Source of the DNA: an uncultured Lentisphaeria bacterium
GTDB taxonomy: Bacteria > Verrucomicrobiota > Lentisphaeria > Victivallales > Victivallaceae
Length of the DNA stretch: 37,825 bases
Direction of reading: 5' to 3'
Assembly: GCA_903831825.1 (NCBI GenBank)
Contig: CAIKZE010000388.1
Span: 1 to 37,825 of the forward strand
The position numbers and the translations under genes are program-made. Below the pieces are notes generated by a model. That model did not search any database and was not told the origin of the DNA. It saw only the letters and a program-made list of their open reading frames with translations. Positions 4,813 to 25,606 of the stretch are shown here, one piece after another. How positions within the stretch are numbered: position 1 is the first letter of the stretch; each line of letters starts with the position of its first letter.

Positions 4813-4929
4813 ATGGTAAACAGTAGCTTTAAAAGCAACACCTTGATTTCCTCCGGCAGATTATCAACGCCATTAAACGCATTCCGATATTCCATCAGCC
4901 GGAATCAAAAATTAACATGCAGGAATTAA
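4813..4929 (+). CDS. Possible 38-residue leader peptide ORF
   Basis: ATG at 4813 has AGGAG at 4800-4804, 8 nt upstream, an ideal Shine-Dalgarno arrangement. It opens 38 codons ending in TAA at 4927-4929. The peptide is polar and Ser/Arg/Lys rich, beginning MVNSSFKSNTL, with no membrane segment or known domain. The stop codon sits inside the ribosome-binding region of the next gene (AAGGAG at about 4928-4933, ATG 4940), so ribosomes finishing here could couple to translation of the repeat protein. It may be a genuine small protein, a leader controlling translation, or chance. The strong ribosome-binding site is the only direct support. Confidence 0.4.
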   Translation: MVNSSFKSNTLISSGRLSTPLNAFRYSISRNQKLTCRN

Positions 4930-4939
4930 GGAGAAAAGA

Positions 4940-7294
4940 ATGGCCTTTACTCAAATCGTATCATTCGAGACCGTGAGCGATGAAGCAGTCAGCTACGGAA
5001 CCCAGGACATCAACAATGGCGGCATTGCCGACAACGGCAGCGTTAGCATTTGCGGATCCCAGGCTGTCAACAGCGGCGGCATGGCGGATTACACAATCGT
5101 TAATTATTTAGGAGAACAGGATGTTTACTCCGGCGGCGTGGCGAACAATACCATCATCAATGACGGTTATCAGGAAGTCCTTTCCGGCGGCATAGTGAAC
5201 GACACCCGGGTCAATCCCGGCGGAAACATGTATGTGTCTTCAGGCGGAATCGTGTCCGGCGCGCTGACGATTGCCGGCGGGCATGTGACGATAGCGAACA
5301 GTGATAATATGCATACTAAGGCGATGGGATTCCTGCTGGCCGATGCCAAAGTCAATGATGCGCTTTTGACAATCCAATCCGGAGTGGTCGGCGACATCAG
5401 CCAAGTCACATTTACCCTGGACGTAAACAACACCGCAACCGGCACTTATATTCTTGGTACCGGCGCCGACATGACCAGCATGAACAACGCGGTGTTTACG
5501 GTGAAGGACAGCGGACAGAGCGTCGATGTAAAAGTCGGCTCCAGTTATACTTTCGCCGACGGCGATAAACTGTCGCTTAGTCTGACCGATGCCGCGACCG
5601 ACCAGTTGACTGCGGCATTTACCGCTAAAGGAGGCGTTCTGGACACGGTGCCGCCGACGGTGCCGACCGGCTTGAAGCAAACGGTCACCGGAAATTCGGT
5701 AGCGTTAGATTGGGCGGACAGCGCCGACAAAAGCCACATCAAACAGTATGATCTCCGGGTGGATAACAACAGCGATTTCAGCAGTCCGGAACATACGGAA
5801 ACCGTTATCCCAAGCCAGGCTGCAGGGAACAATATTCCGGTCGGAACCTATTACTGGGATGTGCGCGCCCAGGACAATGCAGGTAACTGGAGCGATTGGA
5901 GCAAATCATCATCTTTCACTATTACGCCGACGGACACCGGTGCCAATACTTGGAAGATGGCAAAGAATATTGACGAGGGCGTAGATAACTGGGTTGGGTT
6001 CGGCGATCCCGCTGACGTCTACAGGGTGGTCATGGCCAATTCCGGAAGACTGACTCTCGAATTGACCCATTTAAGCGGCAACGCGGATCTGTCGCTGCTG
6101 AGTGCCGCCGGTGCGGTGTTGAAGATTTCCGCTAATCCGGGAACCGCCAACGATGTGATTAACGCCGCGCTGCTGAAAGGAACTTATTATGTCAAAATCG
6201 CGCCGGCCGCCGGTATGACTGATGTTACATATACTTTCGGTAAAGACTTTGACTATGTACCGTCGGACACCGGCGCCAATACCTGGCAGGCGGCAAAGGA
6301 TATCGGCGCGGGCGTGGACAACTGGGTCGGATTCGGCGATCCCGCCGACTACTACAGGCTGACGACGGCTAATGCGGGAACATTAACGCTGAGATTGCTC
6401 AATTTAACCGATGATGCGAACTTGTCGCTGCTGAGTGCCACCGGCGCGGTATTAAAGACTTCCGCAAATCCGGGAACCACCGATGAGGCGATTAGCGCCG
6501 CGCTGCTGGCCGGTACCTATTATGTCAAGGTTGCGCCGGGTACCAGCACAAGCTTCGCCGCTTACACGCTGACCAACTCTGAAATTTATTGCCCGACGGA
6601 CATCGCCGCCAATACCTGGCAGACGGCAAAAGATATTTCCGCCCTCGACAACTGGGTCGGGTTCGGCGACGCCGCGGATGTTTACAGGCTGGTCATGGAC
6701 AGAGCTGGAACTCTGACCCTGGGTATGACCGGATTAAACGCCAATGCGGACTTGTCGCTGCTGAGCGCCGCCGGCGCGGTGTTGAAAACTTCCGCTAACC
6801 CGGGAATGACCGATGAAGCGATCAATAACGTCGCGCTGCTGAAAGGAACTTATTATGTCAAAGTCGCGGCGGTAACCGGGGTGACCGATGCAAGGTACAT
6901 CCTGTCCAGCCAAGTCACTTATTTCCCCGGAGACACCAATGATCAGGCGGGAAATACTACTGCGGCGGCAAAAATTGTTGATGCATTGCTGCCTCCCCAG
7001 AACGGCTGGGTGGGCCTTGGCGACAGCGACGATTACTACCGGTTTAATTTGGCGGCGGCGACACCGGGGACGCTGCGTCTGAGTATGGACGGCGGCAATG
7101 CGGACTTGTCGCTGTATGACGCAAACGGCAGACTGTTGCAGAAATCGGCAAAGACGGGAACATTTGAAGATATGATTACTCGCAACCTTGCCGTCGGAAC
7201 CTATTACGCCAGAGTTAATGCCGTATCCGGCAATAGTATTGATTACACGCTAACGTTCGATAAAAAACCGCTTGCCGGCATGCTGGTAAGCTAA
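4940..7294 (+). CDS. Large repeat protein: strand-loop-strand repeats, FN3-like domain and four PPC-type repeats; likely type I secretion substrate
   Basis: A 784-residue protein without an N-terminal signal peptide. Residues about 20-125 are short repeats of the autotransporter strand-loop-strand kind, with NNGGIADNGSV, VNSGGMADYTIV, YSGGVANNTII and LSGGIVNDTRV spaced about 20 residues apart. Residues about 233-330 form a fibronectin-III-like domain. Four pre-peptidase C-terminal (PPC)-like beta domains start near residues 331, 441, 552 and 663; the first three carry NTW-x-A-K and DNWVGFGD, the fourth a degenerate version (GWVGLGDSDDYY). All four share ADLSLL or ANLSLL-type cores. The start has AAGGAG 6-7 nt upstream. 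The neighbouring ABC exporter and HlyD-type adaptor imply export in one step with a C-terminal signal, to serve as a cell-surface or extracellular adhesin. The gene at the right window edge encodes a relative. Its enzymatic role, if any, is unknown. Confidence 0.8.
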   Translation: MAFTQIVSFETVSDEAVSYGTQDINNGGIADNGSVSICGSQAVNSGGMADYTIVNYLGEQDVYSGGVANNTIINDGYQEVLSGGIVNDTRVNPGGNMYVSSGGIVSGALTIAGGHVTIANSDNMHTKAMGFLLADAKVNDALLTIQSGVVGDISQVTFTLDVNNTATGTYILGTGADMTSMNNAVFTVKDSGQSVDVKVGSSYTFADGDKLSLSLTDAATDQLTAAFTAKGGVLDTVPPTVPTGLKQTVTGNSVALDWADSADKSHIKQYDLRVDNNSDFSSPEHTETVIPSQAAGNNIPVGTYYWDVRAQDNAGNWSDWSKSSSFTITPTDTGANTWKMAKNIDEGVDNWVGFGDPADVYRVVMANSGRLTLELTHLSGNADLSLLSAAGAVLKISANPGTANDVINAALLKGTYYVKIAPAAGMTDVTYTFGKDFDYVPSDTGANTWQAAKDIGAGVDNWVGFGDPADYYRLTTANAGTLTLRLLNLTDDANLSLLSATGAVLKTSANPGTTDEAISAALLAGTYYVKVAPGTSTSFAAYTLTNSEIYCPTDIAANTWQTAKDISALDNWVGFGDAADVYRLVMDRAGTLTLGMTGLNANADLSLLSAAGAVLKTSANPGMTDEAINNVALLKGTYYVKVAAVTGVTDARYILSSQVTYFPGDTNDQAGNTTAAAKIVDALLPPQNGWVGLGDSDDYYRFNLAAATPGTLRLSMDGGNADLSLYDANGRLLQKSAKTGTFEDMITRNLAVGTYYARVNAVSGNSIDYTLTFDKKPLAGMLVS

Positions 7295-7454
7295 GGAGCT
7301 GTTCAAAAATAACCTTTACATCTTTGCGATTCTCCCGAATGCCTTTGTGTTTGCCGGTTCGTTACATACCTGAAGATATGCGTCTCTCCGGCAATTCACA
7401 AAATCACTTCGGGATGTTTCGCGAAACTTGTCAAGTTTATTTCTTTACAGCTCC
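7295..7454. repeat. 160-bp fold-back (MITE-like) element
   Basis: The ends are inverted copies: 26 bp match at 21 positions, starting GGAGCTGT on the left (7295-7302) and ending ACAGCTCC on the right (7447-7454). The arms keep matching inward in blocks (CCCGAA, TTTGTG, TTGCCGG), so nearly the whole element can fold into one hairpin. TAA lies on both sides (7292-7294 and 7455-7457) and could be a target duplication; the left TAA is the stop codon of the repeat-protein gene. It separates that gene from the 97-residue protein gene. It may be a non-autonomous mobile element, or a structure that lowers read-through between a highly expressed substrate and its exporter. Confidence 0.65.
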
Positions 7455-7527
7455 TAAGTGGAAACTTATGTTGCAATGCGGTATTATTAAAAAGAAGCGC
7501 AACTAACGAAGAAAATGGAGAATTGGA

Positions 7528-7821
7528 ATGAAGAAGCGGATTTACGCGGATGGAGTTGAAGCCATAAGCTTCAGTGAAGGAATGGTAAGGATTGACTTGT
7601 ACAACGCCTTGCATGGCAAAAATAATGAACCGGGCAAAGCGCCGGAACGCGAAGTGACTGACGAATTGATAATGACTTCGCAGGGCTTTCTCCGTTCCTA
7701 CTCCGCAATGGAGAAACTGGTGAAACAACTGATGGACGCCGGCGTGGTTCAACGGAACGAGGCGGCGGAAAATAAACAGGCGGCAGCGGCTCCGGAAAAT
7801 TCGTCTCCAAATTTTAAATAG
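7528..7821 (+). CDS. Small conserved-looking protein of the type I secretion locus (97 residues)
   Basis: A 97-residue protein with GGAG 8 nt before the ATG. Residues 1-30 look like two or three beta strands (YADGVEAISFSEGMVRIDLY), residues 45-75 like a strand and a long helix (VTDELIMTSQGFLRSYSAME), and the tail is Ala/Asn/Pro rich and probably disordered. The layout of strands followed by a helix after a hydrophobic strand is reminiscent of DUF3467-type small proteins, but I cannot confirm this. There is no signal peptide. It lies between the secreted repeat protein and the exporter, 24 nt before the latter, so it may be a cytoplasmic chaperone, a targeting factor, or a modulator of the exporter. 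Function is unknown. Confidence 0.75.
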   Translation: MKKRIYADGVEAISFSEGMVRIDLYNALHGKNNEPGKAPEREVTDELIMTSQGFLRSYSAMEKLVKQLMDAGVVQRNEAAENKQAAAAPENSSPNFK

Positions 7822-7845
7822 TAATACGATCCAGGCGGCTTTTTA

Positions 7846-10413
7846 ATGGAAAAATCTTTGGAGAAACAGCTCTTTACCGGCATCGAATGCTTGCGCGCGG
7901 TGGCGGTGAATTTCTGTCGGGACGTAAACTTTGCGGCGTTATTGACCCAGCAACTGTTCGAACTGTGCCGGACTTCGGAACAGGACGGGATTCTGGAGTT
8001 GGCGCGGACATTGGAGTTGGCGCCTGAACTTTGCGTGGAACCTGACTTCCCCGCCGCAGTCGGCGATTACCGCGGACCATTGTTGATTTTGCTCAAAAAC
8101 GACAACTGGGTATGCGTCATCAATACCGACGAACTTAAATCCAATGCGGAAGACGTGCTGATCTGCGACCCGCTGGCAACCGGGAAGAAATTCATTTCTG
8201 TTCAATATGACAAGCTCACCGGCAATTACGGCGGGAAAGTTGTAAAATTCAAGCATCTGCTCACTGGCCAGGAGTCGGGCAACACCGCGTTATTCTGTTT
8301 GACCGCGATCGGACGGCATCACGGACTGGATATTAATGTCCGCCGGTTACTGCACGAATATGCCGTTGACACCAAAGAAATCCCGGAACCGCTCATTTTC
8401 AAGATTGCGCGCGATTACGGCATGAAGACCAGGAAGCAGCATCTGGACTGGGAGCGGCTGGCCTTGCTGGGAGAAGCGTTTCCGGTCATTGCCGAAAAAC
8501 AGGACGGCAGTTACGTCATCATCTGCGGCTGGAGAAAAATCAATGACGACGAACAGATTGCAGTAATAGACCCGTCAATGCCGATGAAGCCGGGAGAAAG
8601 TTTTATTTTCTGGAATCATCAGAAATATACCGAAATGTGCAATGGCAAAATCCTGCTGATCAAGCGGATTTATTCATTGCTGGATGAAAAGCAGCCGTTT
8701 GGAATGATGTGGTTTGTTCCTGAGTTTATCAAGTTGAAAGGCATTTTCGGGCAGATTGCGCTGGCGGTAGTATTAATGAGCGGAGTGGCGCTGATTACGC
8801 CGCTGTTCTTCCAGATTGTGGTTGACAAAGTGCTGGTGCACGCTAGTTATACCACGCTTAATGTGCTTGGCATCGGCATCATCATCGCGCTCTGCTTCAA
8901 TGCATTCATTGAATTTCTCCGCGGTTATCTGCTGCTTCACGCGACCAATAAAATTGACATCAGGACGGCAACCAAAACGTTTGAGCATCTGATGCAGCTT
9001 CCGGTCAATTTTTACGAAACGATTTCAGCCGGGGTCCTGATCAAGCACATGCAGCAGACGGAAAAAATTCGCGGGTTCCTTTCCGGGAACTTGTTTTTTA
9101 CGATTCTCGAACTGGGCTCGCTGGTGGTATTTGTTCCCTTTCTGCTGATTTACAGTGTCAAGCTGACAATTATCGTGCTGGGATTTTCCATGCTGATGGC
9201 GGGAATCATCGCTTTGATGATCAAGCCGTTCCAGACCAGGTTGCAGGAATTGTATCAGGCGGAAGGCAAACGGCAGGGAATGCTGGTCGAGGCGATTCAC
9301 GGCATCAAAACCATAAAATCACTGGCCCTGGAGCCGGTGCAGAAGAAGAAATGGAATGATTCGACGGCATACGCAATCACCCGCTATTTCAGAGTCGGCA
9401 AAATTTCATTGACGGCCAGGAGCATCAGCCAGTTGCTTGAAGCGTTGATGTCCGTGACAATCATCTGGGTCGGCGCGCTCAGCGTATTCGAGAAAGAAAT
9501 CACGGTTGGCTCGCTGATTGCGTTTCAAATGCTTTCAGGCAGGGTTACCGGGCCGCTGGTCAAACTGATTTCGCTGATTCACGAATATCAGCAGACCGCG
9601 TTGTCGGTTAAAATGCTGGGCCAGGTGATGAATACCCCTGCTGAGCCGGGCGGCGGCGGAGTGCAAAACCCGTTGCGCGGCAATATCAGTTTTGACAATG
9701 TTTCGTTCCAGTACACGCCGGACGGCAGGCAGGTGATAAAAGAACTGAGCTGTGAATTCCCGTCCGGCAGCGTTATCGGGATTGTCGGCCGCAGCGGTTC
9801 CGGCAAAACCACGCTGACCAAACTGCTCCAGAGCCTGTATCAGATACAGTCAGGAATCATCCGTTTCGACGGCATTGATCTCAAGGAAATCAACAAGGCG
9901 CATCTGCGCAGCAGTATCGGCGTGGTGTTGCAGGATAATTTCTTCTTCCACGGCACGGTCAGGGAAAATATTTCCATCACCAAACGCAACGCGACGCTGG
10001 AGGAGATAATTTATGCGGCAAAGCTGGCCGGGGCGGAAGAGTTTATTCAGGAAATGCCCCGCGGTTATGATTCAATACTGGAAGAGAACGCATCCAACCT
10101 TTCCGGCGGGCAGCGGCAGCGGCTGGCAATTGCCAGGGCATTGCTGACCAATCCCACGATTCTGGTTTTCGATGAGGCAACCAGCGCATTAGACCCGGAA
10201 AGCGAAAATGTCATTCAGAACAATTTAGCGGCGATGGCGCGGGGCAGAACTTTGATTATTGTTTCCCACCGCCTTTCAATTATTCACGGCGCGGACAAAA
10301 TTCTGGTACTCGACAACGGGGTCAAAACCGCCTTCGCGCCTCATAGTGAACTGGTCAAGCAGCCGGGAATTTATCAGGAATTCTGGCAGCAGCAGATGGG
10401 GAGATTCTTATGA
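7846..10413 (+). CDS. Type I secretion ABC exporter with two degenerate C39-like N-terminal domains
   Basis: An 855-residue fused ABC exporter, HlyB/LapB-like but about 140 residues longer. Residues about 145-280 form a C39 peptidase-like domain in which Thr147 replaces the catalytic Cys and GSYVIICG lacks the His, so it should bind rather than cut its substrate, as in HlyB. Residues about 1-140 look like a second, more divergent copy, ending in the same beta pattern (LLILLKNDNWVCVI, then VLICDPLATGKKF). A six-helix membrane domain spans about 300-560. The nucleotide-binding domain follows from 615: Walker A GRSGSGKT at 648-655 (Lys654), signature LSGGQRQR near 751, Walker B ILVFDEATSALD near 772 and H-loop SHRLS near 806. 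ATP hydrolysis would drive export of the upstream repeat protein. No TolC-like outer-membrane gene is present in the window. Confidence 0.9.
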   Translation: MEKSLEKQLFTGIECLRAVAVNFCRDVNFAALLTQQLFELCRTSEQDGILELARTLELAPELCVEPDFPAAVGDYRGPLLILLKNDNWVCVINTDELKSNAEDVLICDPLATGKKFISVQYDKLTGNYGGKVVKFKHLLTGQESGNTALFCLTAIGRHHGLDINVRRLLHEYAVDTKEIPEPLIFKIARDYGMKTRKQHLDWERLALLGEAFPVIAEKQDGSYVIICGWRKINDDEQIAVIDPSMPMKPGESFIFWNHQKYTEMCNGKILLIKRIYSLLDEKQPFGMMWFVPEFIKLKGIFGQIALAVVLMSGVALITPLFFQIVVDKVLVHASYTTLNVLGIGIIIALCFNAFIEFLRGYLLLHATNKIDIRTATKTFEHLMQLPVNFYETISAGVLIKHMQQTEKIRGFLSGNLFFTILELGSLVVFVPFLLIYSVKLTIIVLGFSMLMAGIIALMIKPFQTRLQELYQAEGKRQGMLVEAIHGIKTIKSLALEPVQKKKWNDSTAYAITRYFRVGKISLTARSISQLLEALMSVTIIWVGALSVFEKEITVGSLIAFQMLSGRVTGPLVKLISLIHEYQQTALSVKMLGQVMNTPAEPGGGGVQNPLRGNISFDNVSFQYTPDGRQVIKELSCEFPSGSVIGIVGRSGSGKTTLTKLLQSLYQIQSGIIRFDGIDLKEINKAHLRSSIGVVLQDNFFFHGTVRENISITKRNATLEEIIYAAKLAGAEEFIQEMPRGYDSILEENASNLSGGQRQRLAIARALLTNPTILVFDEATSALDPESENVIQNNLAAMARGRTLIIVSHRLSIIHGADKILVLDNGVKTAFAPHSELVKQPGIYQEFWQQQMGRFL

Positions 10414-11756
10414 GCGGAAAAGTTACAAAACCGGAAAAACCGTTAATTCCGGAATCGCTGGATTATCAGCCTGACGCGATTGAGCTGGAACATTCCAGTC
10501 TGCCGTGGCTGGGGCGGTACGGTATTTTATCCGTGCTGGTGTTTTTCGTCCTTGCAATAATTTGGGCGTCGCTCTGCAAGGTGGACAAGATCGTGATCGC
10601 CAATGGAAAATTAATTGCGTCCACCAATAATATTGTGCTGAAACCGCTGGAACGCGCCGTTATCAAAAAAGTTAATGTTGAAGTAGGCCAGACTGTCCGC
10701 AAAGATCAGACCTTGATTACTTTTGACCAGACTTTTAATCAGGCGGACGTTGACCGGCTGAAAGAACAGTTGAGAAGCCTGACGGCGCAGTCCATCCGGA
10801 TGCGGGCGGAATTCAACGAAAAAGATTATTTGAAAATGATAGACCCCAATAATATGGATGAAGTCTGGCAGGCGTCAATCTTCGCCAAACGAAATAAATT
10901 CTACATCGAAAAGATGGCGTATTTCGCCGAGAATATCAAGCGTCTGAATGCAATGCAGGACTCCACCCGGCAGAGCGTGGCCAAACAGCAGGAACGGCTG
11001 GAAGCTTTGCTGCGCATTGAAAAAATGCTGGAAGGATTGCAGGAACGGAAGACCGTCTCCCTAAAACAACTGCTGGAAACCCAGATATCGCGACTGCAAA
11101 TGGAAAGCGAAACCGATGCCTTGAGAAATAAATTGAATGAGTCAGACCACGAAATCCTGTCCGAAAAGGCCGGCCTGAATTCGTTTGTCGCGGAATGGTA
11201 CAAGAGCATCACGGAGGAGTTGGTCAAAACCGAGCGTGAATTGAATACCGTCAAGAAAGATCTCGAAAAAGCCGAGCGGCTTAATTCTTTGATTTTCATG
11301 CGTTCTCCGGCGGATGCGATCGTCCTGGACATCGCACAGTTTTCAGAAGGTTCCGCCGTGCGCGAAGCGGAACCGCTGGTGACGCTGGTGCCGACGGATG
11401 CAAAAATCGAAGCGGAAGTCAATATCGAACCCAAGGATATCGGGCAGGTCAAAATAAATGATGACGTCAGAATTAAACTGGACTCATTTCAATTTCAAAT
11501 ACATGGCACGCTGGCCGGCAAAGTCCGCATGATTTCCGAAGATACCTTTCAGGAACAGGGGATGGCCGGAGCGAAACAAAATTTCTACCGCGCCAGAATC
11601 ATTATCTCCGGGAAACTGGACAATGTGCCAAAAAACTTCCGGCTGATTCCCGGAATGCAGGTTACCGCGGAAATAAAAGTCGGCAAACGGCGCATCATCA
11701 CTTACTTGCTGCACCCTCTGGTTAAAGCCCTCGACGAAAGCATTCGCGAACCGTAA
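10410..11756 (+). CDS. HlyD-family membrane fusion protein of the type I secretion system
   Basis: A 448-residue periplasmic adaptor. A short cytoplasmic N-terminus is followed by one membrane helix (GILSVLVFFVLAIIWASL, about residues 35-52), a biotinyl-lipoyl-like half (VIKKVNVEVGQTVRKDQTLI), a long coiled coil (about 105-300) and the second lipoyl half plus beta-barrel (IFMRSPADAIVLDI, then VTLVPTDAKIEAEVNIE). It links the ABC exporter to an outer-membrane channel. Its ATG overlaps the exporter stop codon in an ATGA junction, so translation is coupled. It is the last gene of the locus; the 400 bp downstream contains only a repeat-bounded pseudogene and no obvious strong terminator. Confidence 0.92.
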   Translation: MSGKVTKPEKPLIPESLDYQPDAIELEHSSLPWLGRYGILSVLVFFVLAIIWASLCKVDKIVIANGKLIASTNNIVLKPLERAVIKKVNVEVGQTVRKDQTLITFDQTFNQADVDRLKEQLRSLTAQSIRMRAEFNEKDYLKMIDPNNMDEVWQASIFAKRNKFYIEKMAYFAENIKRLNAMQDSTRQSVAKQQERLEALLRIEKMLEGLQERKTVSLKQLLETQISRLQMESETDALRNKLNESDHEILSEKAGLNSFVAEWYKSITEELVKTERELNTVKKDLEKAERLNSLIFMRSPADAIVLDIAQFSEGSAVREAEPLVTLVPTDAKIEAEVNIEPKDIGQVKINDDVRIKLDSFQFQIHGTLAGKVRMISEDTFQEQGMAGAKQNFYRARIIISGKLDNVPKNFRLIPGMQVTAEIKVGKRRIITYLLHPLVKALDESIREP

Positions 11757-12162: not shown

Positions 12163-13053
12163 TCATTTCAGCTCCGAAAAATCCCCGGGACTGGAAAGAA
12201 TATGCGGAAAACGACCGGTCGCAAAACCATCTTTCCGAGTGTCTCTGCTTCGTGCCGTATTGCGATATTCTGATGGAGAGATTCCGGTATGTTTTTTGAA
12301 CAATTTGCTGAACATAAAAATATCCGGACAGCCGACGATCCCGGCAATCTGACTGATTGAATATGCCGTCGATGACAACAAATATCCGGCCTGATTTATC
12401 CGCGACCGGGTAATGCTTTCCCGGAAAGAACTTCCGGTGTGTTGTTTGAACAGTCTTGAAAAGTGTTCAGGCGAATACCCCGCTTGGGCGGCCAGTTTCC
12501 GCAGGGAATAGTCTTTCTCCGGATGCTCGTTAATTCTGGTATAAAGTTTGCGGATATATTCGGAAACCCGGCTGAACGCATTGAGCTGCGAGTCGTTCGT
12601 ATCAAGATGACTGACTTCCAGCAGCGCCGCCGTCAGCCAGTTTCCGGCGCCGTCCTTGTCACTGCGGTAAAAACAATCCAGCATGCGGTGCAGAATATTG
12701 ACGAAAAATACCGGGTCGGATATTTTACGGTACAGCGCTGGAAGCGGCATGTCTTCCGGTTTAACGACATTTTCCTGAACGTCAATCACGTCAAAATGGG
12801 TGTAAATGACAATCAGCGGTTCGTCGTGATCGTTGTCCGCATACAGCGTCATGCCGGGACGGAATAAAAAGCAGTCACCGCCGCGCAGTTCATATTCCCG
12901 GCCATCAAACGTTAACCGCCCTTTGCCGTCAATCAGAAACCACAAATCGAAATCATGGAATGGGTGGTTGCGCAAATCCCATACCCAGTCCGCTTTGCAG
13001 AAGAATTTGCCCAGCGAATTGATCCGCACCCTGTTTTTTTCATTAAATATCAT
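12163..13053 (-). CDS. AraC family transcriptional regulator with N-terminal cupin-type domain
   Basis: A 296-residue protein. The N-terminal half (about 15-140) looks like the AraC effector-binding cupin (FHDFDLWFLIDGKGRLTF, LRGGDCFLFRPGM). The C-terminal double helix-turn-helix spans about 195-290, with SLRKLAAQAGYSPEHFSRLF as helix pair one and ISQIAGIVGCPDIFMFSKLF as pair two, then the usual FKKHTGISPSEYR. It likely senses a sugar or its product and activates the divergent URO-D gene, whose start is about 100 bp away across a shared regulatory region. No clear Shine-Dalgarno precedes ATG 13053. A few hundred bases beyond its 3' end lies the repeat-bounded pseudogene. Confidence 0.9.
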   Translation of the reverse strand: MIFNEKNRVRINSLGKFFCKADWVWDLRNHPFHDFDLWFLIDGKGRLTFDGREYELRGGDCFLFRPGMTLYADNDHDEPLIVIYTHFDVIDVQENVVKPEDMPLPALYRKISDPVFFVNILHRMLDCFYRSDKDGAGNWLTAALLEVSHLDTNDSQLNAFSRVSEYIRKLYTRINEHPEKDYSLRKLAAQAGYSPEHFSRLFKQHTGSSFRESITRSRINQAGYLLSSTAYSISQIAGIVGCPDIFMFSKLFKKHTGISPSEYRNTARSRDTRKDGFATGRFPHILSSPGDFSELK

Positions 13054-13084
13054 AAAAGTACAAAGATATTGCTGTGTTTAGACA

Positions 13085-13113
13085 TTTACAGTTCAATTTA
13101 ATTCGGCTATAAT
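13085..13113 (+). promoter_or_regulatory. Sigma70-type promoter of the first URO-D gene
   Basis: TTTACA (13085-13090), a 17-bp spacer and a consensus TATAAT (13108-13113) stand 39 bp before ATG 13153, giving a leader of about 30 nt. The ribosome-binding site is weak (GGGA). It lies in the 99-bp gap shared with the divergent AraC gene, so AraC probably binds just upstream. Confidence 0.7.
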
Positions 13114-13152
13114 ATATCTATATATTTTAAAATAACAAACTGGGATAATAAT

Positions 13153-14376
13153 ATGAATGATTATGACAGAAATATTGTGCGGGAACTGGCGACCCGCTAT
13201 GCAGAAGTGGCTAATTGTCCGCTGGAAAAGAAAAAACGCGATTTATGGCGGGCCAAAAACAGTTTTAAACTGACAGACCCGCTGATTTATGTCCGGGCCT
13301 ATGCATGGAATGAAATGCCGATGCTCAAACTGCAAACCGCAGATCCGGTCTGCCGGCAAATAGAATTCTTTTTTCGTAACGAACTGTTTCACGCCACGTT
13401 TGCCGATGATTATATTTTTGAACCGTGGTATTCAGTTAACTGCATATATAAATACTCGGGATGGGGTGTTGACTACAAGCTGGAATATCCCGGAGAAATG
13501 GAAACACTGGAGGCCTATAAAGTCGATTATGCGATAAAAAAGCTGGATGATGTAAAAAAAATGCGGGCTCCGGTTCACGCTGTTGACGAAGCCGCCACTG
13601 CGGAAAAGCTGGAAAAAGTGCAAGACCTGATTGGCGATATTCTTACGGTGGACCTGATTCGCGGACCGTATTGCCGCAACTGGACCGCAGATATTTCCTA
13701 CGATCTGGGCAAACTGCGGGGAATGGAAAATTTCATGCTGGACATGTACGAGAATCCGGAATGGCTGCATGGGTTGCTGAAATTCATGAGCGAGGGCGTC
13801 CAGCGCAACCAGGAACAGGCCGAGTCCGCCGGAGATATCGGTTTGACTTTCACTTACAACCAGGCGATGGCTTATGCGGAAGAATTAAAGGATCCCGCCC
13901 CGAACGTCAACGGTGTAAACCGTGAACAGCTCTGGTGTTTCACGGCGGCGCAGGAATTTGCCCTGGTCTCTCCGGAAATGCACGAAGAATTTCTGTTGCG
14001 TTATCAACTGCCCATAATGAGTAAATTCGGACTGGTGGCCTACGGCTGCTGTGAAGATCTGACCAACAAAATCAGCATGCTGCGGCAAATTCCCAACCTG
14101 CGCCGCATCGCGGTCTCCCCGTTCGCCAATGTCAAAAAATGCGCGGAACAGATTGGCACGGATTACGTCATCAGTTACCGGCCCAGCCCTGCGGACATGG
14201 TCTCTTACGACTTCAATGAAGCACGAATCCGGCAAATCCTGAAACGCGATCTTGAATATCTTAAAGGCACATATTTTGATATTACCCTTAAAGATGTCGA
14301 AACCGTACAGTCTGACCCGGATCGCATTCGCAAATGGGTGAAACTAGTCCGGGAAATCATCGCGGAAACCTGTTAA
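13153..14376 (+). CDS. Uroporphyrinogen decarboxylase-fold (URO-D) family protein
   Basis: A 407-residue protein of the URO-D/cobalamin-dependent methyltransferase superfamily, a TIM barrel. It is longer than true HemE and lacks HemE's N-terminal substrate-binding signature, so it is not a haem enzyme. YGCCEDL at 297-303 occupies the place of the zinc-binding HSCG segment seen in the paralogue at 24586; Cys299 or Cys300 could be a ligand. Such proteins often move methyl groups between a corrinoid or folate and a substrate. Linkage to an AraC regulator and glycan enzymes suggests processing of methylated sugars or similar, but no corrinoid protein is encoded nearby. It is followed directly by the operator region of module copy 1. 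Confidence 0.8.
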   Translation: MNDYDRNIVRELATRYAEVANCPLEKKKRDLWRAKNSFKLTDPLIYVRAYAWNEMPMLKLQTADPVCRQIEFFFRNELFHATFADDYIFEPWYSVNCIYKYSGWGVDYKLEYPGEMETLEAYKVDYAIKKLDDVKKMRAPVHAVDEAATAEKLEKVQDLIGDILTVDLIRGPYCRNWTADISYDLGKLRGMENFMLDMYENPEWLHGLLKFMSEGVQRNQEQAESAGDIGLTFTYNQAMAYAEELKDPAPNVNGVNREQLWCFTAAQEFALVSPEMHEEFLLRYQLPIMSKFGLVAYGCCEDLTNKISMLRQIPNLRRIAVSPFANVKKCAEQIGTDYVISYRPSPADMVSYDFNEARIRQILKRDLEYLKGTYFDITLKDVETVQSDPDRIRKWVKLVREIIAETC

Positions 14377-14385
14377 AAATATCAT

Positions 14386-14506
14386 ACGGAATATTGATTT
14401 TCTGCGTCATTTCATAAAAAAGTGATTTTTTTTAAGGATGCCTATTGACTTCCGATGGTACAAGCATGTAACATATATTGCACGTGGATGGTACAAGCAT
14501 GTAACA
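14386..14506 (+). promoter_or_regulatory. Module copy 1 promoter with two identical operators
   Basis: This stretch is a near copy of 18097-18216. TTGACT (14445-14450) and TAACAT (14469-14474) form a promoter with an 18-bp spacer. Two identical 19-bp boxes, ATGGTACAAGCATGTAACA, lie at 14455-14473 and 14488-14506, 33 bp apart or about three helical turns. The first overlaps the -10 region. Each has TACA-N4-TGTA half-sites, typical of a dimeric GntR or LacI-type repressor. In copy 2 the same boxes precede the intact GntR/LacI gene, making that protein the probable ligand here too. Confidence 0.75.
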
Positions 14507-14631
14507 GAGGAACAGGCTGGATTGCAACGTGGCGGCGGCTGGAAAATGAATTAAGGCAGGGCTGGCAGATATTCAGCGCCCGGATTATCGAACGCGAGTC
14601 CACTATGCAACAATCGGCATTAGTAACAACC
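14507..14631 (+). pseudogene. 3' remnant of a GntR/LacI-type regulator gene (module copy 1)
   Basis: The sequence matches the last 125 or so bp of the regulator gene at 18252-19352. [20 protein letters not shown] corresponds to [20 protein letters not shown] at its C-terminus. The homology starts immediately after the second operator, so about 1 kb of the gene, including its start and DNA-binding domain, has been deleted while operators and tail remain. A one-base gap near the junction and loss of the stop codon leave the tail in frame with the pseudopilin that follows. Not functional as a regulator. Confidence 0.8.
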
Positions 14632-14652
14632 TTTAAAGAAAGGAAAGATATT

Positions 14653-15333
14653 ATGAAAAGACAGAAGGCAGTTTTCACACTCATTGAACTCCTGATAGTG
14701 ATTGCAATCATAGCAATTCTCGCTGCGCTGCTCCTGCCGGCGCTGAATCAGGCGCGCAACAAATCAAAAAGCATTAAATGTGTCAGCAATATCAAACAGC
14801 TTAGTTTTACCTTTAGCAATTATTCTATGGATTTTAACAACTTTCAGTGTCCAACCTATATCCAGCCAAGTTTAAAATATTGGACTGCCTTTCTCTGGGA
14901 TGCCGGTTACAAAGAATTCAACCCGGCCTTCTGCTGGAGCGCAAGAAAAATACAATATTACCACTGCCCGTCTGAACTTACTTATGCTTCAACAGATCCC
15001 CGCGCCGGCGGCGGAACTCATCCGGCGGATTATGCACTAAACTACTACACTCATCCTATGGTTACAGCAACAGGAGGATGGACGCGCGCAGGTTCCCTGG
15101 CGAATCCGTCCCGTCGTCTTGGCATCATGGATTCATGGTTCGGGCGTATGAGTGCATATTATCTTTATAATGACATAGCCAATTCGGGGGCAAATTTTAA
15201 TTTGCGCCATAACAATATGTTCAATGTTAGCTTTGAGGATGGGCATGCCGGGTCATTGAAATGTAGCGAGGTACCGATAAGCAATAATGCGGGGTACGCT
15301 TACACATGGGCAAATGCTCCGTATCCATGGTGA
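14653..15333 (+). CDS. H-X9-DG pseudopilin (prepilin-type N-terminal cleavage/methylation domain), module copy 1
   Basis: A 226-residue protein. [19 protein letters not shown] is a type IV pilin-like leader and hydrophobic helix; processing would fall before FTLIELL, but Val instead of Gly is at -1. [15 protein letters not shown] near the C-terminus fits the H-X9-DG signature of the pseudopilin-like family abundant in Planctomycetes and Lentisphaerota. AAGGA lies about 10 nt before ATG 14653. The frame is open upstream to 14455 only because the regulator remnant happens to be in frame, and the paralogue at 19414 begins with the same MKRQKAVF. It precedes a secreted glycan-active protein by 67 bp, so it may help form a pseudopilus or surface scaffold for that enzyme; this is inference. 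Confidence 0.85.
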
Positions 15334-15400
15334 GTAACGATAATCTTATATCGATAAATGCATATTAACCATTCTTAAAGCTACATAAAAAAGAAAAAAT

Positions 15401-17890
15401 ATGAAATTAATCATGTCTCTCGCATTGTTCCTTTACGTTCCATTCATGATAATGGCGGCAGCTACCTCCAATGTAGTAGACTATCGTCCGGCTTTTGACA
15501 AAACTCCGTACGTCGGGACTGTTTGGAGTTCGGCCATGCCGTGGTGGGCTCCCAACCGCCCGCGGACCCATGCCCAGGGCGGGCCTGATTATTTTTGGCA
15601 GGAGTACTCCAAGCATGATTTGGTTGATACGTGGCGGCAAGTCGCGCTTCAGTGCAAACCCTATGGGTTGGATGGGGTTCAAGTTTCAGTTAATTTACCC
15701 AGTCCGGGGGCGGTGCCCACAGTTTTAGAGGGGGCGAGGCTGGCGGGAAACGGTTTCAAAGCGGGAATCTTTGTCACCCTGGAAAAAGAGAAAAACGTTC
15801 AGGATAGCATTGCCGCTTTTAATCTATTTTTTGACAAATTAGGAGAGAATTTAAACCATCCTAATCTTGCCCGCTGCGGAAAATTCCCAGTGATTTGCAT
15901 TTACAATAAATTGTTTAATTTTACTCCGCAGCAATGGCTTGAAATATTGAACGGGGTTGAGAAGAAGCATGGACGGATGATCTGGCTTTTCAATGCATGC
16001 TGTGTGCCCGTTAAAGACCCAAAATCTTGTTTGTCATCCTATTTGTCGGTTTTTGACGGAGTAACTCAGTATGGAGCGGTAAGTGATTTCCGCACTGACA
16101 AGGGGAATCCGCTGGTTGAAACGATGCGGGAATTCCCTCAGAAAATATTTGAGGGCGGAGTCCACAACACCTATACGGTTCATTTTCATTTTGGCGGACA
16201 TTTCGATCCTCCGCTTAAGCGTTATTTCGAAGCATGGGAGGATTTTCAGCAGGCTAAACCGGATGCGTTGAATCTTACCAATTTTGACGACTGTTATGAA
16301 AACTCGCGTTTTCTACCCAGTTATGAGCTTGACGATTCACTGATGCGGGTAGCGCAATATAAAATTGAACTGTGGCGCGGCAAACCGGTGACACTTTCGG
16401 ACTATCCGGAAATATATGTGAGCAATGACATTTATGCGTTGATCGGGCAAAAGGCCAATTTCCATCTTATGGCGTTTCCGGTGAAAAAGCAGGATTCCAT
16501 GCTGGAAGTGGAGCTGGAAGTTTGCAGCCCGTCAGGCAAAGTTTTACATGTTTTTCCCAAACAGCAATGGAAGCTTGACCAATTGAGGACTGCGAGTTTT
16601 CAGTTGGACACTTTACCTTTTGCGGGAGAGCCGGCATTGCTGCCCCGCCTTAAATACACCTGGGTGAACGGCAAATCAAAAACCACTGAATTACTTCAGC
16701 CTACCATGCTGACGGTGGGCATGCGCCCTCATACGCTGTGGTGGAGCCGGTCTCTCAAACGGCTCATGGACGTCTCCCCCAACCCGGCGGAATGGACCCT
16801 TAACGGCAAGAAACCGGCGGAGACTGTAATATGGCAGCCTGAGCAGCCGTTCATATACAAAGGAGAAATTAAAGTCAAATACGGGGATCTTCTCTCACAA
16901 CGTTGCTCTGATCTTCGGCTGATGCGCAATTTTGTGGAAATCGATTCTTACCCTGCCGCCAACTTTAACTTTGCCAATATTGCCCAACTGCCCGACCCGG
17001 GTTATGCGCTGGACTGGTATCAGATTGAGCTTGAAAACAGTAAAGGAGCGCGCTTTGAGACTCCGCCGATTTTTGTTTCGGCAAACCGTCGTCCCGGTCA
17101 AATAAGCATGCCCGTTGTCACCACATCAGGGGAACCCGCCGTTATTGAGATTGCGGCAGAGCGAGTGCCGTTTTTCCATTATGCCTGTGATGCCGATTAC
17201 GGGCCGTATCTGTACGATTCATCCGGTTACCAGCATCATGGTTTTATCGGAGGGCAAGGTTACGGCGGCGGACATTTTGAGCGTCTCGGATACCGCTTTG
17301 AACATTTGGGCAAGGTTGCCGGCGATTTTTCTCAAAGACCCCACATGCCGAAATTTAGCGTTGAACCTGACGGCAAAGGATATTTTCATTTTGACGCCGG
17401 CAAGGAAAGTTTCATAATGTTGATGGGAGGAACCGCCTTTGCCCCGGCGTGCACTTACGAACTTCAAATAAAGCCTGATAAGTTCGGACAAAAACAAGGC
17501 TTGATTGCCAGCGTCAATGGACAGGTGCTCATTGAATTGTTAGCCGATGGCCGCGTTAGAACTGCAAGAGGGAACGCTGTAGAAATGGCCGGAGGAGTTA
17601 AAGCCAAAACCATCAAAACGATCGAAGTTTATTCAAAACAGCCGCTTCAAATCGGCAAATGGACACGTTTGGCAGTAGTTTACGATCTTCACGATCTTAT
17701 TTTGTATGTCGATGGTGTTGAGCAGGGACGCGCCGCCGTTGGCTATAACCCTTGTTGGGAAGTGCTCAACCATGTAATACTCGGTTCCAATTGTAAATGG
17801 ATATGGGACCCGGTTGATTATTTTACCGGAGGAATTCGTCAAGTGCGCATCTATGGTCGAAACCTGAGTCCGGATGAATTTTTGAAATAA
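15401..17890 (+). CDS. Secreted glycoside-hydrolase-like protein (TIM barrel, GH71/GH99-like) with C-terminal LamG-like domain
   Basis: An 829-residue protein with a signal peptide (MKLIMSLALFLYVPFMIM, cleavage near AAA at 19-21). Residues about 30-340 resemble a TIM-barrel hydrolase of the GH71/GH99-like group: YGLDGVQVSVN, FKAGIFVTLE, KFPVICIYNKL and the long IWLFNACC strand. I cannot name the catalytic acids with confidence. The middle (about 350-590) looks like beta-sandwich domains. About 600-829 is a concanavalin/LamG-like domain (YLYDSSGYQHHG, WTRLAVVYDLHDLILYVDG, IRQVRIYGRNLSPDEF), probably glycan binding. The ribosome-binding site is weak (A-rich). It is the last gene of module copy 1 under the operators at 14455-14506. 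Substrate unknown; a family other than GH71 is possible. Confidence 0.75.
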   Translation: MKLIMSLALFLYVPFMIMAAATSNVVDYRPAFDKTPYVGTVWSSAMPWWAPNRPRTHAQGGPDYFWQEYSKHDLVDTWRQVALQCKPYGLDGVQVSVNLPSPGAVPTVLEGARLAGNGFKAGIFVTLEKEKNVQDSIAAFNLFFDKLGENLNHPNLARCGKFPVICIYNKLFNFTPQQWLEILNGVEKKHGRMIWLFNACCVPVKDPKSCLSSYLSVFDGVTQYGAVSDFRTDKGNPLVETMREFPQKIFEGGVHNTYTVHFHFGGHFDPPLKRYFEAWEDFQQAKPDALNLTNFDDCYENSRFLPSYELDDSLMRVAQYKIELWRGKPVTLSDYPEIYVSNDIYALIGQKANFHLMAFPVKKQDSMLEVELEVCSPSGKVLHVFPKQQWKLDQLRTASFQLDTLPFAGEPALLPRLKYTWVNGKSKTTELLQPTMLTVGMRPHTLWWSRSLKRLMDVSPNPAEWTLNGKKPAETVIWQPEQPFIYKGEIKVKYGDLLSQRCSDLRLMRNFVEIDSYPAANFNFANIAQLPDPGYALDWYQIELENSKGARFETPPIFVSANRRPGQISMPVVTTSGEPAVIEIAAERVPFFHYACDADYGPYLYDSSGYQHHGFIGGQGYGGGHFERLGYRFEHLGKVAGDFSQRPHMPKFSVEPDGKGYFHFDAGKESFIMLMGGTAFAPACTYELQIKPDKFGQKQGLIASVNGQVLIELLADGRVRTARGNAVEMAGGVKAKTIKTIEVYSKQPLQIGKWTRLAVVYDLHDLILYVDGVEQGRAAVGYNPCWEVLNHVILGSNCKWIWDPVDYFTGGIRQVRIYGRNLSPDEFLK

Positions 17891-17959
17891 ATCAATTGTT
17901 TGAAAGTTGGATCGAACTTATTATCGGAAGTTGAACCACTTACAAATAAAAAAGCGTTA

Positions 17960-18096
17960 ATGAATTCAAAATAAATAATTTGCTGACTTGGAACACCGCA
18001 ATCCGTCGCGGCCCGGTCTTGCGTTCGACAATAACCGGATCAGCGACATGGACTGCTCCGGGATGGGGTCTGCCATCTGCGGAAGATGAAAGTTTA
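17960..18096 (+). pseudogene. Remnant of a URO-D gene (paralogue of 24586-25581)
   Basis: From ATG 17960 the DNA matches the first 120 or so bp of the URO-D gene at 24586, including CTTGCGTTCGACAATAACCG. It then jumps from GGTCTGCC to ATCTGCGGAAGATG, which lie about 270 bp apart in the intact gene, and ends at about 18096. A TAA occurs at codon 5 and there is a 2-bp loss near codon 8, so it cannot be translated. It borders the operator block of module copy 2 exactly where the intact URO-D gene borders that of copy 1. The rest of the gap 17891-17959 shows nothing recognisable. Confidence 0.85.
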
Positions 18097-18216
18097 ACGG
18101 AATATTGATTTTCTGCGTCATTTCATAAAAAATGGATTATTTTTCAGATGCCTGTTGACTTTTGATGGTACAAGCATGTAACATATATTATGCGCGGACG
18201 GTACAAGCATGTAACA
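18097..18216 (+). promoter_or_regulatory. Module copy 2 promoter with paired operators
   Basis: TTGACT (18155-18160) with TAACAT after 18 bp mirrors the copy 1 promoter. Operator one (18165-18183) is identical to the copy 1 boxes; operator two (18198-18216) differs at one base (ACGG for ATGG). Spacing is again 33 bp. The regulator gene starts 35 bp after the second box, so autoregulation by the GntR/LacI-type protein is the simplest reading. Confidence 0.75.
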
Positions 18217-18251
18217 TTGGTATAAAGTAAATGAAGCGATAGGGTAATGCC

Positions 18252-19352
18252 ATGGGACCGGTTAAAAGATTGAAACTGTGTGAAGCGATTAAGTCGGATA
18301 TTGCGTCCGGCCTTTATTTGCCCGGCGGGTTCCTGCCGAATGAGTTTGACTTGGCGGATAAATATGGTTATTCCCGGAATACAGTGCGTCCGGCGCTGGC
18401 GACGCTCGAAAATGAGAAGATTATCGAATTGCTGAAAGGCAGAGGACGCCGGGTATGTCCGGTTAATGTCAAAGCCCCGGTTCCGTTGACTTTCCTGTTG
18501 CCGTGCGCCGATTTTCTCAGCGACACTAGGGAATACCCATACGCGTTGCATCTGCGTCAGATGCTGAAAGGGGTATCGCAAATTGCTTTCGAACACAATT
18601 GCCGGGTGCAGACGGTGCCGGTTTCACCGACAAACTATCAGCATAACATTGATTTGAAGCAATTGGACTTCGTTGATTCAAACAGCAAATTGCTGGTGCA
18701 TAATTACTGGTATGCTGATTTATTTCCGCTGTTCAAGGAACGCGGCTGCAAGATAGCTTTTGTCGAAACTCAAGCCCGCTATTTCAAGCTTTATGCCGAT
18801 TACCTCAAAAATTGGTTTGTCTTAACCATAGATCGTGAAAACGCGGCGGAAGCGGCGGTAAAATTTCTGGCGGAACGCGGTTGCCGGCGGATTGCGTTGG
18901 CGAATGGCTTTATTGAAGAAAAAGACCATCCGATAATGTCCGGTTATAAATCAGGACTGGCCAAATGCGGGCTCCGGTATGCCGCCTGGATAGACACGCG
19001 GGCAATCACCGATGAAATTATCGGCAGGTTCATCGCCGACTTCTATAAGAAAAATAAATTTGACGCGTTGCTGCTGGACCCCCAACTGGTTTTCAGGCTG
19101 CGGACGCAGCATTCGTTGAATTATTATCTCGGCTTGCCGTCAAGCGTGAGAATCATGGCAGATAACGAAATGAGCTATAACCAACAGGCGTTCCCGTCGC
19201 TTTCAAGTCTGGTTTTTCCGTATGAGGAAATAGGCCGGATTGCGGCGCGGCTGCTGCTGGAAGATGAATTCAGGCCGGGTCGGCAGATATTCAGCGCTCA
19301 GATTATCGAACGCGAGTCCACTATGCAACAATCAGCTTTAGTAACAGCCTAA
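18252..19352 (+). CDS. GntR-type winged-helix regulator with LacI-like ligand-binding domain
   Basis: A 366-residue regulator. Residues about 5-75 form a GntR winged helix ([46 protein letters not shown] wing). Residues about 80-345 follow the periplasmic-binding-protein fold used by LacI proteins ([43 protein letters not shown]), so it probably binds a sugar released by the enzymes of its own operon. Few bases separate it from the pseudopilin gene downstream (stop 19352, first ATG 19369). The two operator pairs, its own at 18165-18216 and the orphan one at 14455-14506, suggest that it controls both modules. It has no obvious Shine-Dalgarno; GTAATGCC precedes the ATG. Confidence 0.9.
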
Positions 19353-19439
19353 AAAAAGGAAAGACATTATGAAAAGACAGAAGGCAGTTTTCGCAAAAGA
19401 AAGGAAAGACATTATGAAAAGACAGAAGGCAGTTTTCAC
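19350..19439 (+). repeat. 45-bp tandem duplication carrying ribosome-binding site and start codon
   Basis: Two adjacent 45-bp copies (about 19350-19394 and 19395-19439) each contain AAGGAAAGACATTATG followed by codons for KRQKAVF. The duplication is in frame, so the pseudopilin has two complete initiation signals at 19369 and 19414. Initiation at the first would add 15 residues before the leader. Copy 1 of the module has only one unit. Confidence 0.9.
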
Positions 19440-20148
19440 ACTCATTGAACTCCTGATCGTGATCGCCATCATCGCAATTTTGGCAGCCATGCTGCTGCCG
19501 GCGCTGCAAAAGGCCCGTTCAACCGCCAAAAAGAGTTTCTGCTCAAACAATATGAAGCAGATCTGCCTGGCCCACAGCATGTACATCACAGACTTTAACC
19601 ACGTTGTCACTTGGAGTCAGTCTACCAAAAGCGGCCAAAAAACACAAAACGGAGCATGGACGCAAGTTCTCGCGCCATATGTCAACAACAATGCGCTTCT
19701 CTGGGTCTGCCCGTCAATCCCGGTATTAGATCTGCAACTAGCACTACTTAAATCCTGCCATGACCCATATGCGGCTGCCTGGACAAGCGGCATGCACACG
19801 GACCAAACTATCGGGATCAATGGCTTCTTCTTTGACTATACGGATCAAACCCAACAGTTAACCAGCAATAATTTGACTATCATCAAGACCCCGTCTAAAC
19901 TGATCTATAGCGGAGACAATGCGGACTATCTGGGCTTCTGCGTTCCGGGAAATAGTAACGACGGCAGATATGTTACCTACAATGGATTGTGGCCGACTGC
20001 CGGCGCGTATTTCAATCCATGCCACGATAATAACTGCAATCTCGGCTACCTGGACGGTCATGTTGAATCAGTCCCCGCAATGGTTCTATATCCCCGTGTG
20101 ACGAAAGTGGATGTGTCAAACCTTTATTTGTATATGCTGCAGAAATAA
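19414..20148 (+). CDS. H-X9-DG pseudopilin, module copy 2
   Basis: A 244-residue protein from ATG 19414, with [19 protein letters not shown] as prepilin-like leader and helix, then [19 protein letters not shown], typical of the family. [13 protein letters not shown] near the C-terminus fits H-X9-DG. The start at 19369 is in frame and equally well supplied with a ribosome-binding site, but would give a leader of about 22 residues. The start at 19414 matches the paralogue at 14653. The body differs strongly from that paralogue after the first 40 residues, so each module keeps its own specialised head domain. Cotranscribed with the regulator upstream and the 1142-residue enzyme 30 bp downstream. 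Confidence 0.85.
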
Positions 20149-20178
20149 TCATCCTTAAGAAGAAAAGGTCAACCAATA

Positions 20179-23100: not shown

Positions 23101-23607
23101 GAAAGCATCGGGCTGCAGCAGGGTAACATCCCCTATTGCCTCTGGCTTGTTAATGGCAAGGATAAACAGAAAGTCGCATGGGCGGAAAGGACCGGAACCG
23201 GCGTGGCGTTAACCCATGAAATAAAGACTTACGGAACTCCGGATATCTTCTGGGACACCTACAAGACAATGCTGGATTTCGGCTACGGCAGGCCGGATGT
23301 CAAAGTTTCACAATACTGGAGGAAGGACCATCCGGTATCTTTTGCGGGGATAGACACTTCCTCGCTCTCCATGAGTAAGCCTTCCGCCTGCCTTGTTTTA
23401 GTCTGCGACTGGAAAAACGGCGGAGAGGCACAGATGAGCCTCGACAAAGGTCTCTTTAAGAATGACGCGAAACTTAAAGCGAAAGATATGGAGAGCGGAG
23501 AATCTCTTGCTATTACGCCGGAAGGCAAGGTAAAATTCAATATCAAGCGTCATGATTTCAAACTGATCCTCGTCGAAGAGGACAAAAATAAACCGGACAA
23601 GGCATGA
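20179..23607 (+). CDS. Large secreted glycan-active protein: CBM9-like domain plus glycoside-hydrolase-like (GH123/DUF6067-type) region
   Basis: A 1142-residue protein with a signal peptide (KKLFSGLVPLFLSIAPLMVSA, cleavage near residue 25). Residues about 35-240 look like a DOMON/CBM9-like carbohydrate-binding domain (PCIDGEIKESEWAGA, YLDDNVELFFDPTP, WHFECAIPLQSLG). A long middle of beta domains follows. Residues about 700-1050 look like a TIM-barrel hydrolase domain of the DUF6067/GH123-related type, with acidic motif CLDSIYWDDLFF near residue 872 and GVSYDLDPVASFRDYALW before it. The catalytic residues are a guess. AAAGG lies upstream of the ATG. It is the main enzyme of module copy 2, presumably acting outside the cytoplasm on a polysaccharide, with the LamG-like protein encoded 34 bp downstream. 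Confidence 0.75.
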   Translation: MKVKKLFSGLVPLFLSIAPLMVSAEESFQLPTVRMPFMKEAPCIDGEIKESEWAGAARMEGLCIHGSGNLTGGKVSFWVGCDNRKLYIAMISETAPGGKLFAKVAPVKDGNARAYLDDNVELFFDPTPNAAKEERFIYHAIINSKGAMYRQKYAAAGGENWRDEIEAKSRIIGDRWHFECAIPLQSLGVNSSLEGKPFGLRICRNWQSAQYGKVSQWPPFGGPHVNTDTMPVITWDNTAPVVQTLQLIDKASNKAKLILSVYNPGTQPLKVAVDVQTRPRSSAHSNLTETVELKPDETRILELAAPAMADETVYAWMKIGSPDGAKIYYLRDLNFSISRKEPFFVAQDSAAERINFNFAYYPSINSMKLKVDFSALEDKGNVKGAIIELRKKGESKVIGKLELKEVKNFSAKVEKWKLPELGEGEYELTLTLDGAKVNPLKDTFVRHKFPWEGNKIGMSDILIPPYTPIKIDGESVSTILRKHSIDKTGLWTQVEALGSRILNKPMRLELTSGGKTYIAEGIDFKWTEKRDTKAAAEGNWKAGPYSGSVKAEWDYDGLMKWTLELPQSDVKIDSLRLIIPVDNSIAPLMHACTDGIRFNYAGYVPSGNGVVWTSGKAAHNFLVGTFVPYLWVGGEDLGICFSAENDRGWINAAGKSCQEIVRNGDTLEIVYNLIAQPSIIKEAREITLAFLATPVKPMPENWRVKIFGAWKAKPFVGKDNYLGFFGACYYWGAETACQDYYPRGGDMEYLKKLVEKRNSGIDDKAYIENWLKGYTKALDAIGDPDERKKLAQVYRNHVNFAFKGMSERMCFYTNGRGVRFDTPEGQTFLNEWIISEFSTRAWKYAGGVSYDLDPVASFRDYALWYFKEMAEICLDSIYWDDLFFSSNFNTALTDAYYLPDGNIQPSMGLYNMREYVRRGAVMYLEMKRPAMNMVHMTNTAIVPILSMAQMNYTWEDKRGDADFQDRFSRDYIRAESIGLQQGNIPYCLWLVNGKDKQKVAWAERTGTGVALTHEIKTYGTPDIFWDTYKTMLDFGYGRPDVKVSQYWRKDHPVSFAGIDTSSLSMSKPSACLVLVCDWKNGGEAQMSLDKGLFKNDAKLKAKDMESGESLAITPEGKVKFNIKRHDFKLILVEEDKNKPDKA

Positions 23608-23641
23608 GGACGAATTCTTTGTACCGCCGGAGGAATGCAAT

Positions 23642-25581: not shown

Positions 25582-25606
25582 TTTAAAACAACACGGGAAT
25601 ATTTAA

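Follow-up and report, generated by a model that had tools for sequence, protein, structure and literature searches.

How a large beta-repeat protein that lacks both a signal peptide and RTX repeats might leave the cell is the question raised by a locus of the window, i.e. the whole stretch of 37,825 nucleotides analysed here, which is contig C388 in full, one of the 506 contigs of the 5.9-Mb genome of a lake bacterium. Here, I argue that the locus probably encodes a type I secretion system (T1SS) of the little-studied BltDE type, which exports non-RTX surface adhesins by recognising their C-terminal tail, with a small protein serving as adaptor.

Gene content of the locus

Four genes follow one another on the plus strand, namely those of the substrate, the small protein, the ABC exporter and an HlyD-type membrane fusion protein (Table 1). 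The preliminary description had placed the locus at 4813-10413, and the locus itself is borne out; the HlyD gene, lying just outside that interval, belongs to it too. The succession of an ABC exporter gene and an HlyD-family gene, by which T1SS are generally recognised, is thus found here. No TolC-type channel gene occurs within the window locus; an OEP homologue (95 bits) adjoins a copy of the small protein on contig C130.

Table 1. Features of the secretion locus and of the right edge, in positions of the window
Feature	Positions	Strand	Description
Substrate	4940-7294	+	784 aa; strand-loop-strand/AIDA stalk, Ig-like stretch, four PPC domains, C-terminal tail
AIDA/strand-loop-strand repeats	5015-5191	+	Substrate residues 26-84; TIGR04415, O-heptosyltransferase target
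PPC domain array	5927-7219	+	Limits approximate
Substrate C-terminal tail	7262-7294	+	KKPLAGMLVS and stop; proposed secretion signal
Small protein	7528-7821	+	97 aa, type B (T1SS-linked), end SSPNFK; proposed adaptor/chaperone
SPNFK	7804-7818	+	C-terminal end of the small protein
ABC exporter	7846-10413	+	855 aa, BltD-like, tandem C39-like domains
CLD1	7846-8268	+	First C39-like domain, exporter residues 1-141
CLD2	8269-8676	+	Second C39-like domain, exporter residues 142-277
HlyD-type membrane fusion protein	10410-11756	+	448 aa; TIGR01843 306.8 bits (cut-off 208.65)
Second PPC substrate	37221-37823	-	C-terminal 200 aa only; tail LLKKGLLAG

The second substrate, already noticed at the right edge, is confirmed: its ORF is truncated where the contig stops, and its identity with the first substrate is 56% across 151 aa. 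A possible leader ORF had also been proposed (4813-4929, 38 codons), for which coding finds no support: it includes a block of about 50 bp that is repeated, with 84% identity, upstream of two further substrate genes, but the lengths of the aligned copies differ in a way that would disrupt a reading frame. An element of about 160 bp with inverted ends (7294-7455) lies in the gap between the substrate gene and that of the small protein; it is a MITE-like insertion, of which contig C226 (L048) has a 93% identical copy and other places have partial ones. Beside the locus, positions 12163-27871 probably form a cluster for polysaccharide use, with regulators of the AraC and GntR families, LamG proteins, a pilin-like N-methylation protein and proteins resembling GH123 and melibiase.

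Substrates without RTX repeats

The substrate scores above the cut-offs of both the AIDA stalk (PF16168, 28.9 bits; cut-off 27) and the strand-loop-strand profile (TIGR04415, 50 bits; cut-off 30), and a domain search finds four PPC stretches in it. Its pI is 4.3 and its maximal Kyte-Doolittle value over 11 residues at the N-terminus is 1.01. The claim that this beta-repeat protein carries neither a signal nor RTX repeats holds: the N-terminus is not hydrophobic in the manner of a signal peptide, and the GGxGxDxUx nonapeptide has no match in it, nor in any of the 11 substrates of the genome (0 matches in 11/11). No autotransporter barrel was matched on the substrate in Pfam up to E 1. Paralogues are encoded on more than ten further contigs.

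It is highly improbable that the substrate is secreted by a type IX system through a Por sorting tail, the neighbouring exporter being a coincidence. Por_Secre_tail (PF18962) and TIGR04183 do score above their cut-offs on the substrate, but both matches overlap the PPC repeats and, in a paralogue of 1052 residues, they fall midway (476-521), so that they are taken as cross-hits, and the substrate has no Sec-like N-terminus.

The absence of RTX is not universal within the exporter clade described below, since in a sister group the exporter is paired with a serralysin-like protein bearing RTX matches. At five loci (L433-L437), two differing copies of the small protein flank a protein of 620-683 aa with a G[MIT]LV-type tail; the exporter comes next, followed by HlyD where the contig extends, and the L434 protein, the one scanned, is serralysin-like.

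Placement of the exporter

The preliminary description had suggested a distinct T1SS branch in PVC bacteria and named an exporter phylogeny as its check, a position inside an HlyB or LapB clade speaking against it. HlyB (TIGR01846) is the best-scoring family of the exporter, at 626.5 bits and below the curated cut-off of 725.55; LssB (TIGR03375) gives 494.1 bits, again below its curated cut-off (693.1). On the HlyB profile, five alphaproteobacterial BltD-like exporters score 574-679 and six HlyB-type references 843-1055. In a tree of 53 rows, which includes 24 of 54 aligned exporters and in which several references are long-branched, Lentisphaeria, alphaproteobacterial and related exporters form one clade of 41 rows (100/99), separate from the HlyB-type, PCAT and NHLP rows, and the exporter of the window falls in it, apart from all HlyB-type references. 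As the row LSSB_L432 proved to be HlyB-type (843.5 bits), the tree holds no LapB/LssB reference; a position within HlyB is contradicted by the tree, whereas the LssB score is what speaks against one within LapB. The single-domain exporter L291 is placed inside the clade of tandem-domain exporters, so one domain may have been lost there.

These results bear on a reading in which the locus would be a usual system of the HlyB or LapB kind, serving RTX-type substrates. TIGR01846 being the best-scoring family speaks for it, but the exporter lies below both curated cut-offs, with 6/6 HlyB-type references well above its score, it belongs to a separate clade, and the genome's substrates lack RTX matches; the reading is therefore very improbable.

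In a plasmid search, Rhizobium exporters came closest, with 53-54% identity over 98% of the query (whose start was near CLD2), against 37% for EhxB. This gene set also occurs in Rhizobium, Methylovirgula and Azospirillum, where the exporter has one C39-like domain; the pair of small protein and exporter is present in the latter two. The Rhizobium order is DUF4082 substrate, G3E-type GTPase, 102-aa protein, 714-aa exporter and HlyD, and the 102-aa protein matches the small-protein alignment with 99% probability (E 2e-18), final SPNF included. At two of these loci (L378 7328-8560; L386 7695-8927), the G3E-type GTPase gene between the substrate and small-protein genes is annotated as GTP-binding protein. 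The rhizobial system is, going by the accessible text, BltDE of Krehenbrink and Downie 2008 (PMC2275737), where large non-RTX proteins are placed upstream and the system is termed bacteriocin-exporter-like; in the same text, mutating bltD in Rhizobium 3841 led to no change that was seen among the proteins of the supernatant. A literature search for pRL90163 gave no match. The window locus has both marks of a BltDE-like system, i.e. an exporter of this clade and an adjacent SPNF small protein. As judged from sequence, the system is not specific to PVC bacteria: the distinct branch stands, and in view of the alphaproteobacterial loci its confinement to PVC was too narrow.

Two C39-like domains

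The unusual architecture reported for the exporter is confirmed, about 140 of its 855 aa being additional N-terminal residues. When profiles of residues 1-141 and 142-276 from 54 exporters are compared with hhalign, they match with 97.7-98.1% probability (E 5e-13 to 2e-12). A predicted structure of residues 1-287 (pLDDT 73.8, pTM 0.51, seven sequences) has the same order of elements twice, and in a structure search with the second copy CLD2 matches the HlyB and ComA domains at Z 15.6. By profile and model, then, the additional N-terminus is a second, non-catalytic C39-like domain.

The 54 full-length exporters, obtained from 60 regions fetched among the matches in 66 genomes, plus those of the window and of contig C190, are 847-951 aa long, and Cys15 is invariant in them (54/54). 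At the positions that I take, in part, to be those of the catalytic Cys/His motif in the C39-like alignment, both domains of the 54 exporters have other residues in place of the Cys, and no conserved His is seen at its position. With neither catalytic cysteine nor histidine, the C39-like domains should tether and not cleave. The motif positions were compared with the accessible text of a review (PMC8277102), where C39-like domains are said to accompany RTX substrates, and RTX substrates C39-like domains. A conserved exporter family with C39-like domains, even doubled, beside RTX-less substrates contrasts with that rule as worded there. The second domain was found in 66/387 genomes of the phylum sample, from 25/197 genera, and in the present genome a single further tandem-domain exporter, accompanied by an HlyD gene, is encoded on contig C190 (59%).

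A small protein that tracks the exporter

The 97-residue protein, rightly described as being of unknown family, matches no Pfam or NCBIfam family, and among the papers listed in literature searches there was no mention of the small SPNF protein. Its own family has three members in this genome and occurs in 104/387 genomes of the phylum sample and in 37/398 genomes sampled from a second phylum (that of G427). Relatedness being ignored in both counts, 60/66 genomes with a tandem-domain exporter have the small protein, and the tandem-domain exporter is absent from 44/104 genomes that have it.

The C-terminal end of the small protein is closely tied to gene order. Of the distinct small proteins, 140 are followed by enough sequence for this comparison, and 28 of them end in [SP]-[SP]-N-F; a same-strand exporter lies within 1.4 kb downstream of 26/28 of these and of 2/112 of the others (p 1e-23). 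The gap is within 55 bp in 25 of the 26, and in the two of the 28 that are exceptions a single gene of 518-521 aa intervenes before the exporter. The survey of gene order proposed in the preliminary description thus shows, in more than one phylum, a small protein encoded ahead of the exporter. Type A members, i.e. those without SPNF, adjoin TolC homologues, giant ORFs or a strand-loop-strand heptosyltransferase-like gene at several Lentisphaeria loci (neighbours labelled from profile searches and reading); they are also found single or in tandem copies away from the exporter. One Lentisphaerae MAG has four consecutive small-protein genes (L235 9057-10237).

In the AlphaFold model of the small protein (pLDDT 80.5, pTM 0.59), three strands precede a helix (beta-beta-beta-alpha), and confidence is low at the end. 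A Foldseek search gave nothing better than E 0.3, a VIA search a weak likeness to PC4/PUR/COMM folds (Z 3-4.8), and the sequences of solved structures a best E of 0.03 (ribosomal S20 and an aldo-keto reductase); all structural matches are within the chance level. DUF3467 was considered and rejected, its weak match being limited to 2/20 members (best E 0.099), the window member not among them.

Sequence and gene order suggest that the small protein acts as an adaptor, and it offers itself as a candidate for the fourth component of a T1SS. The export machine could be the same and the small protein a regulator, e.g. a nucleic-acid-binding or anti-sigma-like operon switch, and not a secretion component. 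The three-stranded sheet with a helix, its faint PC4/PUR/COMM likeness, the DUF3467 trace and the Type A copies alone or in tandem away from exporters would fit this. Yet the structural likenesses do not rise above chance, the SPNF end goes with the exporter gene, and Type A members themselves adjoin TolC homologues, giant ORFs or a heptosyltransferase, so that a regulator is unlikely.

The C-terminal tail

Ten of the 11 substrate ORFs of this genome that include a stop end in K(K)-x-G-[MILV]-L-[AV]-[SG] (in short, K(K)..G[MILV]L[AV][SG]). The exception is a PPC ORF of contig C449 (L046 2073-5234), whose product may use another export route. Without the lysines, the core pattern is not enriched genome-wide (18 hits against 22 in the reversed control); with K(K), it has 12 hits against 1. 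In two congeners (G205 and G287), the lysine pattern gives 8 hits against 3 and 11 against 4 in the reversed control, and 6/7 and 9/11 of the hit strings, respectively, translate in frame to such tails. Beyond this genus, the lysine pattern has no clear excess over the reversed control.

A looser form recurs in other genera. GxL[AV] followed by 0-3 residues ends 9/28 distinct closed strand-loop-strand tails, from four genera, against 8/1484 other ORFs (p 1.4e-12), and four of these eight background ORFs are themselves exporter-adjacent candidate substrates; the remaining 19/28 tails are without GxL[AV]. The last four residues are small or hydrophobic in 21/28 strand-loop-strand proteins and in 61/1484 background ORFs, and the rhizobial substrates end in PQLAA. 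In the accessible text of one study (PMC8861453), RTX proteins favour [FLI][VAI] at the last two positions; a hydrophobic end is hence not new in itself.

From this conservation, the short tail may be taken as the secretion signal; if it is, it would provide a usable export tag and a means to predict the secretome of an uncultured lineage. The tail might instead be no signal but sequence that a family of recent expansion has inherited behind its final PPC domain, a longer region being recognised as in HlyA. All 10 tailed ORFs here are indeed paralogues and the lysine form is specific to the genus, but the tail is retained behind two differing linkers in this genome, GxL[AV] recurs in four other genera, and the strand-loop-strand class as a whole ends small or hydrophobic; mere inheritance is rather unlikely.

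Probable glycosylation of the stalk

Directly upstream of a tailed substrate, contig C248 encodes an O-heptosyltransferase of the TibC/Aah family (597 bits; cut-off 200). In a sample of the order, and with relatedness ignored, a heptosyltransferase above the cut-off is present in 59/75 genomes with strand-loop-strand proteins against 4/62 others. These data indicate that stalks of the autotransporter type occur here together with their glycosyltransferase, next to an ABC exporter and with no barrel. Judging from these genes, O-heptosylation of the stalk probably precedes export.

Proposed mechanism

In the BltDE-type mechanism favoured here, the ABC exporter and HlyD would form the inner-membrane part, for which homology argues strongly, and the outer-membrane channel would probably be the unlinked TolC homologue of contig C130, beside a small-protein copy. 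The substrate, without a Sec signal, would be recognised at its extreme C-terminus through the short tail, as suggested by its conservation, in the lysine form in this genus and as GxL[AV] or similar elsewhere. The SPNF protein, made just before the exporter, would bind the substrate or its tail and bring it to the C39-like domains, its flexible end possibly acting as a docking peptide; the two domains would tether the substrate without cleavage. Before export, the stalk would be O-heptosylated by the TibC-type enzyme of contig C248, as in autotransporters. Two exporter/HlyD pairs would serve the substrates of more than ten further contigs and, with so many substrates for two pairs, the tail would be a shared address label. 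A recognition mode of its own, which the preliminary description had suggested for this branch, is therefore plausible in the form of the C-terminal tail and the SPNF small protein.

A wider reading, which falls somewhat short of being probable, is that of a T1SS class of several phyla. A cytosolic adaptor docking through SPNF would bring GxL[AV]-ended substrates to a C39-like domain, which would have been duplicated in Lentisphaeria, and heptosylated AIDA-type stalks, elsewhere autotransported, would have been taken over by it.

Comparison with known systems

With HlyBD, the locus shares an exporter with C39-like and ABC parts, an HlyD, an operon without a channel gene and a substrate without signal peptide; it differs in that the exporter does not reach the HlyB cut-off and has two C39-like domains, in the lack of RTX and in an additional small protein. 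Large adhesins as substrates recall LapBCE and LssB, whereas the exporter reaches 494 bits on LssB against a cut-off of 693 and the operon has no TolC gene. As in PCAT and ComA, a C39 fold precedes the ABC core; unlike them, the exporter is without catalytic residues and the substrate is large and without leader.

The AIDA-I, TibA and Ag43 autotransporters with Aah/TibC have the same strand-loop-strand stalk, and a TibC-family enzyme stands beside one substrate here; in place of the autotransporter beta-barrel, for which there is no match, an ABC exporter gene adjoins the substrate. BltDE of Rhizobium leguminosarum 3841 (pRL90164/pRL90165) differs in the single C39-like domain of its 714-aa exporter, in a DUF4082/cadherin-type substrate ending in PQLAA and in the intervening G3E GTPase gene, yet it has a 54% identical exporter, a homologue of the small protein directly upstream, HlyD downstream and, as in the window, a large acidic non-RTX substrate upstream.
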